Source: Candidatus Kaiserbacteria bacterium
GTDB lineage: Bacteria; Patescibacteriota; Minisyncoccia; Phycocordibacterales; UBA918
Assembly: GCA_020428795.1 (NCBI GenBank)
Contig: JAGQME010000008.1
Span: forward strand, 1 to 32,198
Reading direction: 5' to 3'
Length of the DNA: 32,198 nt
Below are positions 2,333 to 31,633 of this stretch, piece after piece. Position numbers and translations under genes: made by a program. The stretch's first letter is position 1. Each line of letters begins with the position of its first letter. The notes beneath the pieces were generated by a model, which was not told the origin of the DNA, made no database searches, and saw nothing but the letters and a program-made list of their open reading frames with translations.

Positions 2333-2406
2333 GCGGTCGTAGCTCAGCTGGTTAGAGCGCTGCCCTGTCACGGCAGAGGCCGAGGGTTCGAGTCCCTTCG
2401 ACCGCG
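2333..2406 (+). tRNA. tRNA-Asp (anticodon GTC)
   Basis: Complete cloverleaf: acceptor GCGGTCG/CGACCGC, anticodon stem CTGCC/GGCAG with loop CTGTCAC (anticodon GTC), T-loop TTCGAGT, and discriminator G as expected for Asp. CCA is not encoded (the next bases are CAG). Its last 13 bases plus 7 downstream bases recur exactly at 2569-2588. Confidence 0.95.
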
Positions 2407-2730
2407 CAGTTAGTAAAATCGACTTTCATTTTTATGAAAGTCGATTTTACGTTACGAGCGGTCTAAAAACACGTTAGTGTTTTTAGGGACTCGAAAAGAT
2501 GGAGTATATCGCACGGAGCGAAGCGAGTACGATACGACATCTGTACCGTTCCTGTAAGGAAAGAGTACCCCTTCGACCGCGCAGTTAGATACATTAAGAA
2601 AACCCAGTCATGAATGACTGGGTTTTCTTAATGTAGAATGCAAAGAGTTTTGCATTCGTATCTAACTGCGAAGCGCAGACATGTTTTTCCTCATCCCTAG
2701 GGGAAAAACAGTCGAGCTGGGGTCGAAAGT
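2394..2730 (+). repeat. tRNA-Asp tail-repeat region (direct copy, inverted copies, long hairpins)
   Basis: Direct repeat 2394-2413 and 2569-2588 (20 nt, identical, offset 175) covers the acceptor 3' strand, discriminator and first downstream bases. The first copy is followed by a perfect 17-bp hairpin (2413-2429/2434-2450). An inverted copy of the T-arm/acceptor 3' half follows as two pieces (2458-2463 and 2486-2495), split by a 10-bp hairpin (2463-2472/2477-2486). The second direct copy is followed by a perfect 22-bp hairpin (2590-2611/2614-2635), a 9-bp hairpin (2636-2644/2649-2657), and an inverted copy (2658-2670, complementary to 2580-2592). A further 9-bp hairpin (2682-2690/2702-2710) then leads into a GGTCGAA remnant at 2721-2727. 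No plausible gene is present. Confidence 0.85.
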
Positions 2731-3774: not shown

Positions 3775-4449
3775 TCAAAACAAAATTGAATCAATAGCAC
3801 CCAACACCTGCCTTCTTAACCTCGTACCTTTTCTTACTTTTATTCTCAAGGTTCCATAGTGTGACTTTGAGTTTGAATAAAATTTTTTATTCCGAACTTT
3901 TATCAAACTGGGTTTAGTAAATTGTGACCTAGGAATTCCAGTTAGTACAGACCAATACTGCTCAATTTCACTGATTCTATTTTTGTGTAACTCGTTAACA
4001 CTCACTCTTAGGATCAATTTATCGGATGTAATATTAAAAATTTTATAGAGCCATTTACAGTAAAACAATATCATTTGGGGATCACTATTTGTAAAACCAA
4101 ATTCTTGATCACCCTTTTTATAACCTTCACCCCAGTACAATCCCAAACCAATACAATACAAATCTCGACTATTAATTACCCCGATCTTTTTTCTTCCCTC
4201 CTGTTTATCGTGCAGAATATCTAACTGTCTTTTGGCACGTAAAGTTTCTGCATAACGTAATAAAGACTCAGTGCTTTTTGATTTACTTTTTTCGGAAATT
4301 TTCTTAATCGCTAACTTAGACAACTTTATATCCCTACACCAATTACTGACCGTACTTTTGCTAACCCCTACCGTCTTTGCAATATCACCGATACTCATGC
4401 CCTTATTTCTCAATTTGATTGATTTTTCTCGTTCTTTAGCTTTTGTCAT
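3775..4449 (-). CDS. HTH protein with LAGLIDADG-like C-terminal region
   Basis: 224 residues from the ATG at 4449. Residues about 5-45 form a helix-turn-helix (IKLRNKGMSIGDIAKTVGVSKS...SNWCRDI), similar to HTH_23-type domains of resolvases and transposases. The C-terminal half has CIGLGLYWGEGYKKG, then FTNSDPQMILFYCKWLYKIF, a pattern reminiscent of a single LAGLIDADG homing-endonuclease fold with Glu in place of the usual acidic pair. The protein is very basic (Lys/Arg rich). Its promoter TATAAT lies 13 nt upstream of the ATG, and an alternative TTG at 4488 is upstream of that box. It starts 79 nt from the intron-bearing tRNA-fMet, on the opposite strand. A DNA-binding regulator is an alternative reading. 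Confidence 0.6.
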   Translation of the reverse strand: MTKAKEREKSIKLRNKGMSIGDIAKTVGVSKSTVSNWCRDIKLSKLAIKKISEKSKSKSTESLLRYAETLRAKRQLDILHDKQEGRKKIGVINSRDLYCIGLGLYWGEGYKKGDQEFGFTNSDPQMILFYCKWLYKIFNITSDKLILRVSVNELHKNRISEIEQYWSVLTGIPRSQFTKPSLIKVRNKKFYSNSKSHYGTLRIKVRKGTRLRRQVLGAIDSILF

Positions 4450-4527
4450 AAGTCTTAAGGTAATTATACTATATACATAGGTAGACAATTATATTTATTA
4501 GTGTATACTTTTCAAGTTCCTAGATAT

Positions 4528-4845
4528 AGCGGGGTAGAGGAGAGGTACCTCGGGAGGCTCAATAGGGCTCATAAGAAAGAAATTTTTTATGGAACACTTG
4601 CCAAATTCGGTGAAACCTTTGCTTTAAGCATGGCAATACCGAGCCAAGCCCAGCCCTACTTTATAAATTACAATTTATAAAGTAGGGCTGGGAAGGTGTA
4701 GAGACTAGATGGTAGGCATCTGACTTTAGGAAACTAAAAAGATGAAGGTATAGTCCAGACCCCAAATTCATGTTTTACATGAAGCAGTGAAAACTGTAGT
4801 GGTATGCATAACCTCCAGACCCCGGTTCGATTCCGGGCCCCGCAA
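4528..4845 (+). tRNA. Initiator tRNA-fMet (CAT) interrupted by a group I intron
   Basis: The exons 4528-4559 and 4807-4845 join to a full cloverleaf. The acceptor has G2-C71 to G7-C66 paired and A1/A72 unpaired, the D-stem has A11:T24, the anticodon stem is GGAGG/CCTCC with loop CTCATAA (anticodon CAT), and the T-stem is CCCGG/CCGGG. The unpaired 1:72 position and A11:U24 are hallmarks of bacterial initiator tRNAs. Position 1 is A rather than the usual C, and the anticodon stem has A29-U41 instead of three uninterrupted G-C pairs. CCA is not encoded (CAA follows). The 3' half looks at first like a tmRNA tail, but the 5' exon settles it as a tRNA. Confidence 0.9.
4560..4806 (+). ncRNA. Group I self-splicing intron in tRNA-fMet (between U33 and C34)
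   Basis: 247 nt, no ORF. The conserved core is clear: AAATTCGGTGAAACC (P region), GGCAATACCGAGCCAAGCC (Q), GTAGAGACTAGATGG (R) and GGTATAGTCC (S). GACTA in R and TAGTC in S form P7. The layout closely follows the cyanobacterial tRNA-Leu intron core (IC3 type). P8 has a TTTAG-GAAA-CTAAA hairpin. The P9 region has TTCATG-TTTTA-CATGAA and CAGT-GAAA-ACTG. The 5' exon ends in U (4559) and the intron ends in G (4806), as group I chemistry requires. GGGCTC near the intron start is a candidate guide for a short P1, but that pairing is weak by eye. A 21-bp perfect hairpin (4649-4669/4672-4692) fills the P6 position. Confidence 0.9.
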
Positions 4846-5111
4846 CAATAACAAAATCACATCCCTTCTGGGATGTGATTTTGTTATATGTTTGCGGAGG
4901 CCAGAGAGCAAACTGCTTTGCTCTCGTCGGAATCGAACGGACGGAGTCATGTTTTTATTTATTCCTAAAATAAAAACGGACGAGACGAGCCAACGAGTTC
5001 TTATGAGCGTAAGCGAATTTGAAACTCGATGTCGATTCCGGGCCCCGCAACAAGTAAATTTCAACACAAGATAAACGGCCAGCGATCGCTGGCCGTTTAT
5101 CTTGTGTTGAA
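4827..5111 (+). repeat. tRNA-fMet tail-repeat region (direct copy, interrupted inverted copy, long hairpins)
   Basis: The last 19 tRNA bases plus CAA (4827-4848) recur exactly at 5032-5053 (22 nt, offset 205). The first copy is followed at once by a perfect 17-bp hairpin (4849-4865/4870-4886). An inverted copy of the tRNA 3' half follows in two parts (4892-4902 and 4928-4938), interrupted by a 9-bp hairpin (4904-4912/4917-4925). Next is a 10-bp hairpin (4951-4960/4968-4977) and a spacer with GAGCGTAAGCGAA (5005-5017). The second direct copy is followed by a 52-base perfect palindrome (5060-5111) abutting the stop codon of the next gene, which may act as a bidirectional terminator. Confidence 0.88.
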
Positions 5112-23880: not shown

Positions 23881-26800
23881 TTAGTTACCTCTTATTAACT
23901 TAAGTTTTTCTTGTAACACACTAATCTGTGCCAAGAGTTGTTGTATCTGGGACAAAATCTGGTTATGACGATCGCTAGAGACAGTGGTCTCTGGTCGGGT
24001 AAAGTTTTCAGCTACCCAGCCTGAGACACCATCAGCAAATTCAACTTTGATCCAAGTGTGGCCACCTTTTTGAATTGGTGTATCGGTAGACTTGATACCT
24101 AAGGTACCGTTTGGAATAACTCGGACAAGATTACCATTAGGAGTAAGGCGAACATTAAGATTATCGGTAGTTCGGATACGATTATGTGAACTAGTGTTCA
24201 CAGAAGTGTTGTTGGTTGTCGTATTTGATTTTGAACGATCAGAACCTCCACCACCACTACGACTACGTGCTTCAGCCTTGGCCTCTGCCTGTGCTTTTGA
24301 GGTAAGTTCTGGAGTATCGTCTGATTTATGAGTAAAGGTGATAGTAGTTGGATCTGAGTAAACGCCACCAGAAACAGTGTAAAGAGTGTATGTGTATTTT
24401 TTATTATCTTTAGCTGTCTCGTCAGTATAGGTGGTAACATCAGAGTCCAAGGTAGCTAGTGGTTTATCACTAGTCTTGGCGGTCGCATTACCGTTGCGAC
24501 GAATAACAACTATTTCGTCCACATTATCATCAGTCAGAGCATCCCACTCCAGAATAATCGAACCAGAACGGGCGGTTAGATTACTCACCTTCTGTGGTTT
24601 ACCAATAGTACGGAAGGAATCAACGCTGGTGGTGTCACTATTACCAGCCACATCGGTGGCGGTGAGTGCAAAGTAATACGTAGTCTTATTGGAGAGTCCC
24701 GTTAAGGTGAAGGTGTGAGTGGTAGTGAGGTCGGTGTTGGCAACACTATTGTTTAAGTTATTGCGGTTAGTACCGAAACGTAGAACTGAAGTAGCTGGTT
24801 CGTCGGTCTCAAAGGTGATGACCTGAGTAATTGGGTCGTTGCTAGTTGTTACATTATCGATGAAGGTAATCTCTGGTGCTGTTGTATCAACTGGTGGTGT
24901 AGTGACGTTAGAAACAGTGATAGTAATACTATCAGTATCAGTGTTGCCAGCACCATCAGTAGCCAACGCCGTAATAGTGTACACACCATTACTTAAGGTC
25001 GTAGTATCGAGACCGGTGTCATAAGGAGCGCTTGTGTCGGTACTAAGGGTGTTGCCATCAAGACTAAACCGCACTGAAGCCACTCCCGTGGTACTCTGAC
25101 CACTAGCACTTGGGTCATTAGCATCGGCAGTAATCGTAATTACTTCTTCAACTGTGGCGCCGTTACTTGGACTAGTAATAGTAACTGAAGGATCAGTAGT
25201 ATCTGGAGCAGTAAGCGTAGTGAAGGTCATATCCTGACTGGCCGCAGCGTTGCCAGAAGCGTCACGTGAACTAACTTGGAAGTGATAAGTGGTATCTGGA
25301 GCCAGGCCAGCAAGTGTTTCGCTGTGGCTGGTACTGACTGTACTTGTTTCACCGGTAGTATTGCCATAGGAATTAGTGGTACCGTACAAAACTTCACTGG
25401 TAGCTAGTTCATCTGTACTCCAACTTATAGTAGCACTACTCTGTCCAATGCCAGAGACTGTTATAGAACTCAAAGTCGGTGCAGTCACATCACCATTTGG
25501 GGTAGCGTCACAAGCATCACCCACCCCATCACCATCGGTATCTGTCTGATCCGGATTCACAGTATTTGGACAGTTGTCTGTAGAATCTGGAACATTGTCA
25601 CCATCGGTGTCTTGCGGCGGATAAGTACAAGAGCCATCGTCTTGAGTAGCGGACGGATTGTAATTTGAGGCGGCCGGATCGGTACAGCCGAGGACTGGTG
25701 TCGGAGTATTGTACAGTGTAAGGAATTGTTCAGCTACCCAACCATCGACACCACTATCGAAATCAACTGGAATCCAGATATACCCATCGGCGCTAGCCGG
25801 AGAGACATTAAGAACAGTACCGACTGCACCGGCTGGTTGCGTACCAAGGAGAGAACCGGAGAGTCCGTATGGATCACGAACGTTAAGTATGTCGGTAGTC
25901 TCCACTCTTGATCCTGCCGGAAAATTCGAAGTAGTACCACTACCCCCGTATTCGACAGCTCCGATATCGACGGCACTACCTTGTGGACGATTGGTGCCGT
26001 AATAATCTAGAGTTGGTGCCAGCGTGGCTGAACCAGCGTCTATAGCAGTTGAGTCACTTTGTAGACGGAAATTATGATTGGCGGCATCGATGAAGTGAGG
26101 ATCGGTTGTTAGGTTGTGGTCAACCACTGGATTCGGACCAACATAAGAAAGCGCAATATCCGGTGAACTAGCATTCGCATATGCGATATTGTTACGGATT
26201 GTGATATTTTCTGCTTCAGGATGGTAAATGATAATACCCTTGTGGCCATTGTTATACAGTGTGTTGTTTACAATCCGAACATCTTTAATGGTTCCAGTCA
26301 CATCAGGGTGATTGTATATTTCGATACCCTCAAGTTCCATACCAGTCACGATGTTGTTGTATATATCAATGTCACGAACATGTCCCCAACCTTCGGTCGA
26401 AATAGCAATACCACCCCGATTTGAATCATGTATGTAGTTATCGTGAATCTTTATATTTTGGACCACTGGTGCCTCATACTCACCATAACCATTGGCACCA
26501 CCACGACCACCATCAAGATAGATACCTGACCGGGCGACGTTAGTCAGTTCATTACCGACAATCTCACCGTTGTTGGCACCTTCTTTCACATCGATACCAA
26601 GACCGTTACCACCGATTGGTTCACCACCATTAATGACGAGATTGTTCTTAATGACGAAATCAACAACACCGTTACCGACGGTGATATCCTCGTTGTAGCC
26701 ACCATTAACTGCCATCTCAACTCGGTTACCTTCGACGAGCACGTTGCGAAGTCCTTCATAGTTGTAGACCGTTGGATCATCACCCCAAGCCACACCCCAG

Positions 26801-29184
26801 ATAGCGATACCTGATGAGTAGGTGTCGTAGGTGTGATTGTTAGTGACTACGATACCTTCGGCCGGACCAATAAAGCTAATACCACGACCGTGATCATAAC
26901 CGCCGGCTGGTACATTCTGAACTTTAAAGCCATTGATGGTAATGTAGCTCTTCTGCTCCACGAAGAACCCAGCGCCGTTTATGACAACTAGTCGTTCCTG
27001 ACCAGGGTAGGCACTGTAGGTAATTGGATTACCGGCCGTACCAGAACGAGCTGGTTGCACACTTCCGGTGTAGGTACCCTGCTTCACATACACAGTGTCA
27101 CCGGCGGTCAAAGTGGCGGCTGCCTTATGGATGGTCTTCCATGGTGAAGCTTCGGTTCCCGGATTACTATCGCTGGCACTCACATTATTAGTATCAACAT
27201 AATAAGTCGTACCACCGGTTGGAGTTGATTGCGTTGTCGCTTGGGCGCTAGCTGATTGACTGGAGGTGTTACCAGCGGCATCACGCGCTCGGACAGTGTA
27301 GCTATAGGTTGTATTTGCGGTCAGATTACTATTGGTGAATGAAGTACCAAGCGTGGCTGCTACAAACGTACCATCACGGAATACATCGTATCCAGAGACA
27401 CCAACGTTGTCACTTGAAGCATTCCATGCGAGGTTGATCTGACTTGATGACACAGCTGTTGCGCTGAGGTTGGTTGGAGTTGATGGTGCAGTAGTGTCTC
27501 CTGAAGAACCAGTCCCAACACAACTACCTGTTCCCATATCAGTAAACGATCCACCGGCTGCCGACATAAATTCCCAAGCGTAAGTATCATCACCAAGTTC
27601 CAGTTTGAGTAAACCAAAGTCAGTAGAATTCCGTGCTTCACTGTTGTCCATCAAAGGTCCGAATGAATAGAGTTCAGAACCACCGGCTCCGACTACGAAG
27701 CTTCTTATTCCTTGGCTTGGCTCGGCATTACCATTTGCATCTTGTGGAGCAAACCGTTCATATAGATGATCGTGACCACTCAAATATAGAGTGACGCCGT
27801 TGTCATAGAGTACCTCAAATAGATTAAGAGCAGTTGCGCTTTGTCCATGAGTTCCGGAACTATATGCCGGAGCATGAGCATAAGCGAGGACACAACTACT
27901 GTTGTTATTGGCGAGATCATCGATAAGCCACTGCACCTGAGCAGATGAATTAGAAGTTGAAATATTGGTATTAAGAGAAATTAAATGCCAATCACCCAGA
28001 TCAAAACTGTAGTATTCAGCTGGGGCACGGGAACCAAAGTAATCAAAGTATCCTTCGGCATCTGGAAGGTGGTATTCATGATTGCCAGGCGTTGGGTAGG
28101 TTATATCTTTGAAACTTCCCCAAGATGGATCATAGTAGCTATTAAATTCTGAGAGTGTACCATCGGGATATGCACCATCACCAAGCATCAAAACAGCATC
28201 GGGATCGACAGCCTCAATCAAATTAGCGGTGAGTTGCTGGCTACCACCTGATTCACCGATATCACCACCGGCCATAACGGTCACAGTCGCACCTTGTGGA
28301 AGCGTGGTAGCGCTAGCACTTTGTGAATTATTCGACACGTTACCGGAAGCATCACGGGCCCGTACTGTATATGTATACCCAGTGTTTGATGACAACCCAG
28401 TATTGGAAAATGATGTACCAGTAACTGTACCCACTAGTGATCCGTTACGATATACGTCATAACCTGAAACACCAATGTTATCACTTGAAGCGTTCCAGGT
28501 TAGATTGATCTGACGAGAAGAAACGGCGGTCGCATTAAGATTGGTTGGTGTTGAAGGTGCGGTCGTATCGGACACTGTACTGTACTCAATATGCAACAGT
28601 GGAGCACCAGCTGAATCACCATCGTAAGCCTCAGCCACTCTTGTGCCCGAACCAGTAATCACAAACGCAATCGCATTACCACTTGACCAACCGGAACGAC
28701 TCACTACCTCTTGGATAACAGAAGAAAGGTTTGGTGTTCGTTGACCGGTCTGCGCTTGACCAACGGTAGTCCAAGCTGGTGGTACCCAATTGACCGATGC
28801 CGAAGTAAGGGTGCGGGCACTGATATTGCCGTTGCCAGCAAAGGTTGAAGCGTTATTAGTATCCTCTGCTTTTATAGTCAAAACGGTGTTTTCTGAAGAA
28901 GCTTCGTCTACCTTAAACTGAATGTAAGCATTCGTAACCGTAGAACCAGGTGGAATAGTGATATTTCGAAAACGTAGACCGACCTTTTGCTCGGCATCAT
29001 CAGTGACTAGTTCCAAATCTGAACTATCAAGATAGATGTCTCCAGCTAAAAACTCTTCCGCATCATCTGAGCTCGCTGAAATTCGTACATCAATACTAGC
29101 AGCTAGGGTTGTGTTGACCCCGATACAAGCTATGATTAGTACAACAAAAACCCTTTTGGCTATCCTCCCAAAAATTTGTGACAT
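23881..29184 (-). CDS. Giant mosaic secreted protein: metallophosphatase, beta-helix, FN3, TSP3, SH3 domains
   Basis: 1767 residues with a signal peptide (about 1-29, ending LAAS). Approximate order: DNRLRE/CBM96-like jelly roll (30-205); FN3 (210-300); calcineurin-type metallophosphatase of the purple-acid-phosphatase kind (303-560) with GDIGES, GDGAYPDG, GNHEYHL, YAHAPAYS and GHDHLYER metal ligands all intact; FN3 (570-660); pectate-lyase-like right-handed beta-helix (665-1085, opening YYVDTNN...GTEASPWKTI); SH3-like (1100-1165); thrombospondin type 3 calcium repeats (1175-1235, DTDGDNVPDSTDNCP); FN3 and Ig-like domains (1240-1610); a Ser/Asn/Lys-rich linker; a second SH3-like domain (1660-1720); and a C-terminal coiled coil (ILSQIQQLLAQISVLQEKL). 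The last element is common on Parcubacterial secreted proteins (from memory). It probably acts at the cell surface on phosphate esters and/or polysaccharides. No LPXTG or other sorting signal is seen. Confidence 0.88.
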   Translation of the reverse strand: MSQIFGRIAKRVFVVLIIACIGVNTTLAASIDVRISASSDDAEEFLAGDIYLDSSDLELVTDDAEQKVGLRFRNITIPPGSTVTNAYIQFKVDEASSENTVLTIKAEDTNNASTFAGNGNISARTLTSASVNWVPPAWTTVGQAQTGQRTPNLSSVIQEVVSRSGWSSGNAIAFVITGSGTRVAEAYDGDSAGAPLLHIEYSTVSDTTAPSTPTNLNATAVSSRQINLTWNASSDNIGVSGYDVYRNGSLVGTVTGTSFSNTGLSSNTGYTYTVRARDASGNVSNNSQSASATTLPQGATVTVMAGGDIGESGGSQQLTANLIEAVDPDAVLMLGDGAYPDGTLSEFNSYYDPSWGSFKDITYPTPGNHEYHLPDAEGYFDYFGSRAPAEYYSFDLGDWHLISLNTNISTSNSSAQVQWLIDDLANNNSSCVLAYAHAPAYSSGTHGQSATALNLFEVLYDNGVTLYLSGHDHLYERFAPQDANGNAEPSQGIRSFVVGAGGSELYSFGPLMDNSEARNSTDFGLLKLELGDDTYAWEFMSAAGGSFTDMGTGSCVGTGSSGDTTAPSTPTNLSATAVSSSQINLAWNASSDNVGVSGYDVFRDGTFVAATLGTSFTNSNLTANTTYSYTVRARDAAGNTSSQSASAQATTQSTPTGGTTYYVDTNNVSASDSNPGTEASPWKTIHKAAATLTAGDTVYVKQGTYTGSVQPARSGTAGNPITYSAYPGQERLVVINGAGFFVEQKSYITINGFKVQNVPAGGYDHGRGISFIGPAEGIVVTNNHTYDTYSSGIAIWGVAWGDDPTVYNYEGLRNVLVEGNRVEMAVNGGYNEDITVGNGVVDFVIKNNLVINGGEPIGGNGLGIDVKEGANNGEIVGNELTNVARSGIYLDGGRGGANGYGEYEAPVVQNIKIHDNYIHDSNRGGIAISTEGWGHVRDIDIYNNIVTGMELEGIEIYNHPDVTGTIKDVRIVNNTLYNNGHKGIIIYHPEAENITIRNNIAYANASSPDIALSYVGPNPVVDHNLTTDPHFIDAANHNFRLQSDSTAIDAGSATLAPTLDYYGTNRPQGSAVDIGAVEYGGSGTTSNFPAGSRVETTDILNVRDPYGLSGSLLGTQPAGAVGTVLNVSPASADGYIWIPVDFDSGVDGWVAEQFLTLYNTPTPVLGCTDPAASNYNPSATQDDGSCTYPPQDTDGDNVPDSTDNCPNTVNPDQTDTDGDGVGDACDATPNGDVTAPTLSSITVSGIGQSSATISWSTDELATSEVLYGTTNSYGNTTGETSTVSTSHSETLAGLAPDTTYHFQVSSRDASGNAAASQDMTFTTLTAPDTTDPSVTITSPSNGATVEEVITITADANDPSASGQSTTGVASVRFSLDGNTLSTDTSAPYDTGLDTTTLSNGVYTITALATDGAGNTDTDSITITVSNVTTPPVDTTAPEITFIDNVTTSNDPITQVITFETDEPATSVLRFGTNRNNLNNSVANTDLTTTHTFTLTGLSNKTTYYFALTATDVAGNSDTTSVDSFRTIGKPQKVSNLTARSGSIILEWDALTDDNVDEIVVIRRNGNATAKTSDKPLATLDSDVTTYTDETAKDNKKYTYTLYTVSGGVYSDPTTITFTHKSDDTPELTSKAQAEAKAEARSRSGGGGSDRSKSNTTTNNTSVNTSSHNRIRTTDNLNVRLTPNGNLVRVIPNGTLGIKSTDTPIQKGGHTWIKVEFADGVSGWVAENFTRPETTVSSDRHNQILSQIQQLLAQISVLQEKLKLIRGN

Positions 29185-30989: not shown

Positions 30990-31038
30990 TCCTAAAGTAT
31001 ATCAAAGTAAGTTATGTGTCTCGTGCTAGCTCTAAACG

Positions 31039-31234
31039 GCGGAGAGTAAGGGATTCGGTCACAAGTCCAAATCGAAGATTTGGCTCGCGACCCCGCCTCG
31101 ACTCTCTCTTTCTCCGCTTCGCTTCGAAATTCACATGAGTCTCCGGCTTTCGAATCCCTTACTCTCTCGCTCGCACAAACAAAAACAATGCTACTCGCAT
31201 TGTTTTTGGTGCTCGCGGAGAGTAAGGGATTCGA
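31039..31234 (-). repeat. tRNA-Ser tail-repeat region (direct and inverted copies of the 3' end)
   Basis: The 3' end of tRNA-Ser (31215-31233) recurs exactly at 31039-31057 (19 nt, same orientation, offset 176). An inverted copy of 16 bases lies at 31151-31166. Immediately after the tRNA a 12-bp hairpin (31180-31191/31197-31208), followed on the minus strand by TTTTTGTTTG, looks like an intrinsic terminator. The spacer has GAAGCGAAGCGG (minus strand, 31114-31125) and a 7-bp hairpin around 31070-31083. No gene is seen. Confidence 0.85.
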
Positions 31235-31302
31235 ACCCTTGAAGGCTTTTACACCTTACCTCGTTAGCAGTGAGGCGCTTTCGACCACTCAGCCAACTCT
31301 CC
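31216..31302 (-). tRNA. tRNA-Ser (anticodon GCT)
   Basis: 87-nt class II tRNA on the minus strand. Acceptor GGAGAGT/ACTCTCC, anticodon loop CTGCTAA with anticodon GCT and an A31/C39 mismatch in the stem, a long variable arm (AAGGTGTAAAAGCCTT), T-stem AAGGG/CCCTT with loop TTCGAAT, discriminator G. CCA is not encoded (CGA follows). Confidence 0.93.
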
Positions 31303-31563
31303 ATATTCACTCCGAGCTGGCTGAGTGCTCTCAAGGTTCGTCCACCTCGCAAGCTCGGATTCAAAGTGCCCCCAGCACTTTTCATCCACTCAGCCAACTC
31401 TCCAGTTTTGCTCTATTGTTATAACGTTTATAGTTCAATAAGCGTTAGGTTTCGTTTCCTCCTTTGGTCTGTTCGTACCTCACAACGACCAATCTGCTCA
31501 CTTTGTTCGCAGACCAGATGAAAAGCAAATAAATTTGCTTTTCATCCACTCAGCCAACTCTCC
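31286..31563 (-). repeat. tRNA-Ser 5'-end copies upstream of the gene
   Basis: The first 18 bases of tRNA-Ser (31285-31302) recur at 31386-31403 and 31546-31563. The two extra copies share 26 identical bases (31378-31403 and 31538-31563, offset 160). Each is followed in tRNA orientation by a hairpin: 13 bp for the outer copy, AAAGTGC/GCACTTT for the inner one. An inverted copy with one mismatch lies at 31314-31327. The bases between hold no convincing gene. Confidence 0.8.
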
Positions 31564-31633
31564 TTAAGTACATTATTTAACATAATTTATAAAATAATGT
31601 GTCGGTAGAATAACATATTAGACATAGATTCAA

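Follow-up and report, generated by a model that had tools for sequence, protein, structure and literature searches.

Two families of short hairpin-forming elements probably account for the copies of both tRNA ends around a tRNA-Ser gene of Candidatus Kaiserbacteria

Introduction

What process surrounds a tRNA gene with copies of both of its own ends? The question is raised by the tRNA-Ser(GCT) gene within a 32,198-nucleotide stretch of the genome of a Candidatus Kaiserbacteria bacterium (assembly GCA_020428795.1, contig JAGQME010000008.1, positions 1 to 32,198; the window hereafter). A first-pass annotation, noting that integrase att duplication usually touches one end only, had called for another process such as repeated template switching or a tRNA-primed event. 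The observation behind this proposal is correct but too narrow in scope, and is not peculiar to tRNA-Ser(GCT). We consider it probable that tRNA-gene loops in this Paceibacteria order (Candidatus Kaiserbacteria and relatives) are insertion sites for two independent families of mobile elements, each short, non-coding and hairpin-forming, and the tRNA-Ser copies are best read as the outcome of these two families rather than of a single process at work on the two ends.

Anatomy of the tRNA-Ser(GCT) locus

The features are listed in minus-strand order, the 5' part running from the promoter-like stretch to the inverted 5' copy and the 3' part from the intact tRNA-Ser to the flank. E5 and E3 denote the 5' and 3' element families, and R1, R2 and R3 are covariance models of long E5, short E5 and the 3' type 1 core, respectively.

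31599..31617, minus: putative promoter-like ATGTTATTCTACCG, upstream of the distal 5' copy (by-eye comparison)
31546..31563, minus: distal copy of tRNA-Ser nt 1-19 (18 nt, exact; sequence match)
31458..31545, minus: E5, long type, with three hairpins (31518-31545, 31493-31513, 31464-31492) and right end AAAGGAGG (R1, 108 bits, as one of the six seeds of that model)
31404..31457, minus: AT-rich spacer from the long E5 to the second 5' copy (sequence)
31386..31403, minus: second exact copy of tRNA-Ser nt 1-19 (sequence match)
31342..31385, minus: short-type E5, first hairpin plus GAGGTGG right end (R2, 98 bits, as a seed member of that model; R1, 20.9 bits)
31337..31341, minus: ACGAA, the D-loop continued after the short E5 (tRNA nt 20-24, TCGAA; one change; sequence)
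31314..31327, minus: inverted (fold-back) copy of the tRNA-Ser 5' end (13/14 match)
31215..31302, minus: intact tRNA-Ser(GCT) (ARAGORN; Rfam RF00005, 57.7 bits)
31180..31208, minus: putative terminator-like hairpin and T-run directly 3' of tRNA-Ser (read from the sequence)
31149..31166, minus: inverted copy of the tRNA-Ser 3' end (18/18 match)
31058..31147, minus: 3' element, type 2 core, right end ...GGGGTCGCGAG..GACTTGTGAC against T-loop C56 (alignment with 11 other tRNA loci)
31039..31057, minus: distal copy of tRNA-Ser nt 56-74 (last 19 nt, exact; sequence match)
31016..31038, minus: flank CGTTTAGAGCTAGCACGAGACAC, found directly 3' of the tRNA in relative G020 (empty site)

The first 18 nucleotides of tRNA-Ser(GCT), GGAGAGTTGGCTGAGTGG, recur exactly at 31386-31403 and 31546-31563, as had been reported; about 3e-8 exact 18-mer matches are expected by chance (1.2 kb, both strands), which is negligible. 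The direct and inverted 3' copies, the inverted 5' copy and the hairpin adjoining each upstream 5' copy (31518-31545, and within 31342-31385) could all be confirmed, while tRNA nt ~25 to ~55 left no trace in any copy at this locus. The two upstream 5' copies share 26 nucleotides (31378-31403 and 31538-31563), from which the first-pass annotation had concluded that they were copied from each other. The identity is real, but its eight extra bases, ATGAAAAG, represent the left end that is conserved in E5 and also follow GAGTGG at tRNA-Tyr and at other tRNA-Ser genes in other species. Because these bases belong to a conserved element end, the 26-nucleotide identity is no proof of mutual copying. 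The promoter-like motif matches, by eye, the leaders of tRNA-Ser(GCT) in relatives. As a separate observation, the 23-nucleotide flank at 31016-31038 is conserved 3' of tRNA-Ser genes in several genomes of the genus.

Copies of tRNA ends recur and are specific to their host gene

A search with the window locus revealed the same architecture at other tRNAs in relatives. Counting all tRNAs found, the window's genome (G000) has its own 3' end copied downstream at 9 of 29 tRNAs, the tRNA-Thr(TGT) case being less secure because it includes a stretch of N and a lengthy tandem match, and its own 5' end copied upstream at 4 of 29, while wrong-side controls (5' end downstream, 3' end upstream) gave 0 and 0. 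The corresponding counts in G002 are 17 and 7 of 35, with 1 and 1 in the controls. The first-pass annotation had suggested looking for 5'-end copies at other tRNA genes, and these counts answer it. The 3' copies span T-loop nt 56 to nt 74 at Ala, Gln, Glu, Gly, His, Leu, Lys, Met, Pro, Ser, Thr, Trp, Tyr and other tRNAs, and the 5' copies span nt 1 to the D-loop GG, with a longer left extension at a few loci.

The copies follow their hosts. The 5' copy preceding E5 is that of the following tRNA, being GCGTCGGTGGTGGAGTGG at tRNA-Tyr of G018, GGAGACGTGGCTGAGTGG at tRNA-Ser(GCT) of G016 and GGAGAGATGGCTGAGTGG at tRNA-Ser(TGA) of G015, and E5 is preceded by GGAGACGTGG... at one tRNA-Ser and by GGAGAGATGG... 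at another. For 20 of 57 distinct E5 matches, the copy is within 3 mismatches of the next tRNA downstream; 42 of 92 E3 matches have a copy upstream within 3 of 22 mismatches (reversed-copy controls, 0). The duplicated length varies, from 18 nucleotides at most tRNAs to ~28 at locus L003 and 38 and 49 at two glycosyltransferase genes. Because lengths range from 18 to 49 nucleotides, this is not a simple target-site duplication of fixed length.

Two structured families of different reach

E5 is ~90 bp long, folds into three hairpins and sits after the D-loop ...GTGG, whereas E3 abuts T-loop nt 56. R1 matches occur in 27 and R2 matches in 10 of 38 genus genomes. The R3 core is found in 37 of the 38, at up to 69 copies (57-69 in two genomes), and in 81 of 148 genomes of the order. 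It is present in 4 of a phylum sample of 192 genomes, all 4 belonging to the same order, and nowhere else in that sample. Matching contigs carry the names Candidatus Kaiserbacteria, Vogelbacteria, Lloydbacteria and Paceibacterota in public records. In alignments fitted to the models, covariation lies far above shuffled and slid controls for both families: 96.4% of cells are paired in E3 (score 0.769 vs 0.194 shuffled) and 97.6% in the 57 distinct E5 matches (0.626 vs 0.163 shuffled). G-U pairs make up ~2.7% in E3 stems by our own tally, vs 3.3% in tRNA acceptor stems and 6.0% in tRNA T stems; on these values G-U scarcity, considered as a mark of DNA rather than RNA hairpins, was dropped as a criterion. 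The 3' element of the window's tRNA-Ser is of a second type, with right end ...TGTGAC/CGA in a loose alignment with 11 other loci; type 2 elements show 46% mean column identity among themselves and are related to type 1 only loosely. No Rfam family covers E5 or E3 in the window (the locus 31000-31620 being scanned up to E 5), the exact E3 motif had no occurrence in viral contigs, and no account of such elements in Patescibacteria was found in the literature covered, which largely leaves out subscription journals. In three loci (L205, L206, L207), 3'-family elements are nested in other palindromic repeats (TTGCGAGTGAGAAATGTCTGGGAGACATTTCGCAAGA...) and within other elements.

Identical cores and a filled target site

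Identical 53-55 nucleotide R3 cores lie at tRNA-Glu and tRNA-Trp in the window's genome, at tRNA-Lys and tRNA-Leu in G002 and at tRNA-Leu and tRNA-Tyr in G041, each accompanied by copies from its own host tRNA. The rpsI gene provides a filled and an empty site, the latter, like all empty sites here, coming from a species-level relative and not from a sister strain. With E5 (G021) the sequence reads CAGTGG/AGTAAACGATAG...GGAGG/ACTAAGCGTTAATATCTAAC, and the empty site (G001) reads CAGTGG/TCAAAACGTTAATATCTCAC, or CAGTGGTCAAAACGTTAATATCTCAC, without the element. The first codons of E5, AGT AAA CGA TAG, restore Ser-Lys-Arg-stop in G021, and the D-loops of tRNA-Ser and tRNA-Tyr contain this target, AGTGG/TC, letter for letter. 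The comparison of filled and empty rpsI therefore shows that E5 inserts there as a unit, without a long duplication. Because no 18-bp duplication accompanied this insertion, the tRNA-end copies need a further step. An empty site for the 3' element is seen in G020, in which the flank that lies 3' of the window's distal 3' copy directly follows tRNA-Ser. Away from tRNAs, E5 occurs at the ends of protein genes, its left arm often supplying the stop codon, and at the starts of a pth-like gene and two glycosyltransferase genes (names that rest on reading of the translations), again with a duplicated upstream fragment. As a side observation, rpsI encodes the Ser close to its stop by AGT where E5 is present and in three genomes without it, and by TCN elsewhere (L299, L048, L303, L321, L328); the AGT forms lacking E5 may be scars of lost insertions.

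Insertion at tRNA loops and competing explanations

In the model that we favor, E5 would insert after (A)GTGG, which in tRNA-Ser, -Tyr and -Glu corresponds to D-loop G18-G19, and some protein genes would receive it at their ends or starts. E3 would enter the T-loop next to nt 55/56. After an insertion at a tRNA, the gene would be intact but accompanied by an orphan duplicate of whichever end was invaded (nt 1-19 or nt 56-74), and in most cases the element would also adjoin an inverted, fold-back duplicate of the same end. Since either gene end would collect elements independently, this tRNA-Ser would have come to carry two E5 upstream and one 3' element downstream. Judged by sequence, the orphan ends are the outer parts of tRNA sequences hit by insertion, because the D-loop resumes for ~15 nucleotides after E5 at tRNA-Tyr locus L041 (ACAATCACAACAGACT), as insertion predicts, and at tRNA-Glu loci the whole anticodon arm follows E5, with a second insert splitting the T-loop. 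We infer that insertion caused the end duplication, and likewise the order of events and a tolerance of insertions because the tRNA leader is trimmed off and the region past the terminator is not needed. The intact tRNA would have been restored in one of two ways. Either the insertion itself duplicated the end that it invaded, in keeping with the recurring exact boundaries at 18-19 nucleotides, or it hit one of two tandem duplicates and the damaged one later eroded, in keeping with the Glu loci. Against insertion as the whole account, inverted copies are not given by simple target-site duplication. While a single att duplication of the integrase type indeed cannot give both ends, as the first-pass annotation held, what is called for is two families, one on the D-loop side and one on the T-loop side.

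More tentatively, and with less confidence than in the two families themselves, the hairpin elements might be inserted by machinery for which the tRNA-gene elbow (D-loop and T-loop) is the recognition site and which, in the same act, rebuilds the invaded end by copying it both directly and as a fold-back; essential single-copy tRNA genes would thereby survive the insertion. Such genes would be expected to be closed to transposition, yet in these small genomes own-end copies linked to elements are present at a third to half of them. If end duplication is part of the insertion act, it would provide a harmless route into essential genes and a testable origin for repeats of tRNA ends like the ones that follow E. 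coli tyrT.

Decay of tandem tRNA duplications, in which the copies are remnants of whole genes that received an element in the D- or T-loop and then eroded, is in our view unlikely. It gains from tRNA-Glu copies with complete anticodon arms and D- and T-loop inserts (L051, L053, L085, L086, L118), from a copy of nt 1-41 of tRNA-Tyr in L043 and from a second 3' half in L151; the decayed tandem array named earlier as a refuting explanation thus has longer tRNA fragments on its side at tRNA-Glu and tRNA-Tyr of relatives, but not at the window locus. There, and at most Ser and Tyr loci, copies end at the element boundary (right extension 0) with no anticodon arm, and neither the regular spacing nor the fold-back copies recurring at nt 24-25 fit erosion.

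A regulatory leader or trailer RNA, with direct and inverted copies competing for the tRNA end and E5 and E3 kept by selection as a structured switch, would explain why, in short-type E5 loci, the host end varies together with both its direct and its inverted copy, and why pair covariation is strong in both families. We regard it as improbable, given that a terminator-like hairpin separates tRNA-Ser from its 3' element, the same isoacceptor occurs in related genomes with, without or with another type of element, identical cores move between tRNAs, and many E5 lie far from tRNAs at unrelated gene ends.

Conventional tRNA-targeting integrative elements, whose att sites would be the copies left by deleted islands, are very hard to reconcile with units that measure ~100-190 bp everywhere and hold no gene, that move between tRNAs but in every case stand with a copy taken from the host itself, and that affect the 5' end as well. 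The T-loop is a known type of integrase crossover region; the 3' copies start there, exact nt 56-74 copies flank the element as an integrase would leave them, and there is one tyrosine recombinase per genome. However, the inserts encode no integrase (usually one PF00589 gene exists per genome), and a non-exhaustive search saw no longer element that shares these ends and carries an integrase.

Template switching was among the processes named by the first-pass annotation. Acting alone, at tRNA palindromes during replication and with no mobile element, it accords with the direct-inverted-direct order on the 3' side and the fold-back hairpins at junctions, but conserved covarying cores in dozens of genomes and at unrelated target genes are out of reach of local switching, making it highly improbable as the sole cause. 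The recurrence of fold-back copies nevertheless suggests switching at hairpins as a contributing step that may assist the main mechanism of element insertion. The tRNA-primed event is not supported: the RVT_1 (PF00078) reverse transcriptase is absent from the window's genome and confined to 9 of 38 genomes of the genus, and the distal 3' copies stop at position 74 without CCA.

Comparison with known systems and candidate enzymes

The E. coli tyrT 178-bp repeats (rtT RNA, RF00391) carry 19-nucleotide tRNA 3'-end copies ~176-178 bp apart downstream of the gene. E3 loci resemble them in these downstream copies, but tyrT is one locus, whereas here many tRNA types and two element families are involved across an order, and RF00391 is not among the cmscan matches up to E 5 over 31000-31620. 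Tyrosine-integrase elements with a T-loop crossover likewise duplicate the tRNA 3' end at the far side of the insert, whereas the present elements have no integrase, measure ~150 bp, carry host-specific copies at many tRNAs and include a separate 5' family.

REP/BIME and REPIN sequences with RAYT (TnpA-REP) are, like E5 and E3, short hairpin repeats with many copies per genome, nested, and perhaps with a comparable G-rich tag at the hairpin foot, here GTGG (PMC2817692, PMC3733652, PMC3116915), and one GTAG-type family is reported to have mutated to GTGG (PMC3733652). Where REP palindromes carry a GTAG/GTRG-like tag at the foot, the first hairpin of E5 follows (G)TGG in most matches, with variation among the tags and with three hairpins in a body of ~90 bp. 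E5 and E3 differ in their 80-110 bp multi-hairpin bodies, D- and T-loop targeting and copies of host gene ends, and in that the window's genome has no RAYT and RAYT-like loci are not flanked by elements. Enterobacterial RU/ERIC-type mini-elements are also non-coding mobile repeats, of 100-170 bp, and the part of their description considered here makes no mention of tRNA-end copies (PMC2759123). The E5 and E3 elements explain spurious tRNA fragments around Patescibacteria tRNA genes and define two unannotated repeat families.

Candidate partner enzymes were counted in the 38 genus genomes. Y1 transposase (PF01797) is present in 23 and absent from the window's genome and 14 others, and among 30 Y1 loci E3 was found at one and E5 at none, so RAYT/Y1 was rejected as partner. 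Reverse transcriptase (9 of 38) and Cas1 (1 of 38, absent from the window's genome) are too rare, which also speaks against tRNA-primed retroelements and casposons; a group I intron at the tRNA-Ser locus was dismissed for want of an RF00028 match there, and an integron attC because its AAC/GTT core is absent by eye. The sole near-universal recombinase is a PF00589 tyrosine recombinase, in 36 of 38 genomes and usually as one gene, which is probably the housekeeping Xer. G043 has neither R3 elements nor this recombinase, and because G006 has elements without it, no association is claimed. No partner of E5 or E3 thus emerged from the Y1, RVT_1, Cas1 and PF00589 counts.

Other elements in the window

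Two further tRNA genes of the window, tRNA-Asp and tRNA-Met on the plus strand, each have a 3' element and are followed by copies of their own 3' ends.

2333..2407, plus: tRNA-Asp(GTC), with its own 3' element downstream (ARAGORN)
2488..2564, plus: 3' element, type 1 core (R3, 36.6 bits)
2569..2582, plus: partial copy of the tRNA-Asp 3' end (CCCTTCGACCGCGC; offset 156, 4 mismatches of 19)
4529..4844, plus: tRNA-Met (CAT) split by a group I intron at 4550-4778 (Rfam RF00028, 76 bits; exons by eye)
5033..5051, plus: exact distal copy of the 3' end of this tRNA-Met (CGATTCCGGGCCCCGCAAC; sequence match)

An inverted copy of the tRNA-Met 3' end lies in two parts, at 4892-4897 and 4929-4937. ARAGORN missed this intron-bearing gene (4529-4844), and two loci of relatives (L168, L172) have seemingly intron-bearing tRNAs followed by a 3' element. 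Beside the intron, on the opposite strand, is a gene for a 237-residue HTH-containing protein (3775-4488, minus), possibly a homing endonuclease or a regulator. Elsewhere in the window, 23881-29184 (minus) encodes a predicted secreted, repeat-rich protein of 1767 residues with stretches that appear, by eye, fibronectin-like, calcium-binding-like and SH3-like.
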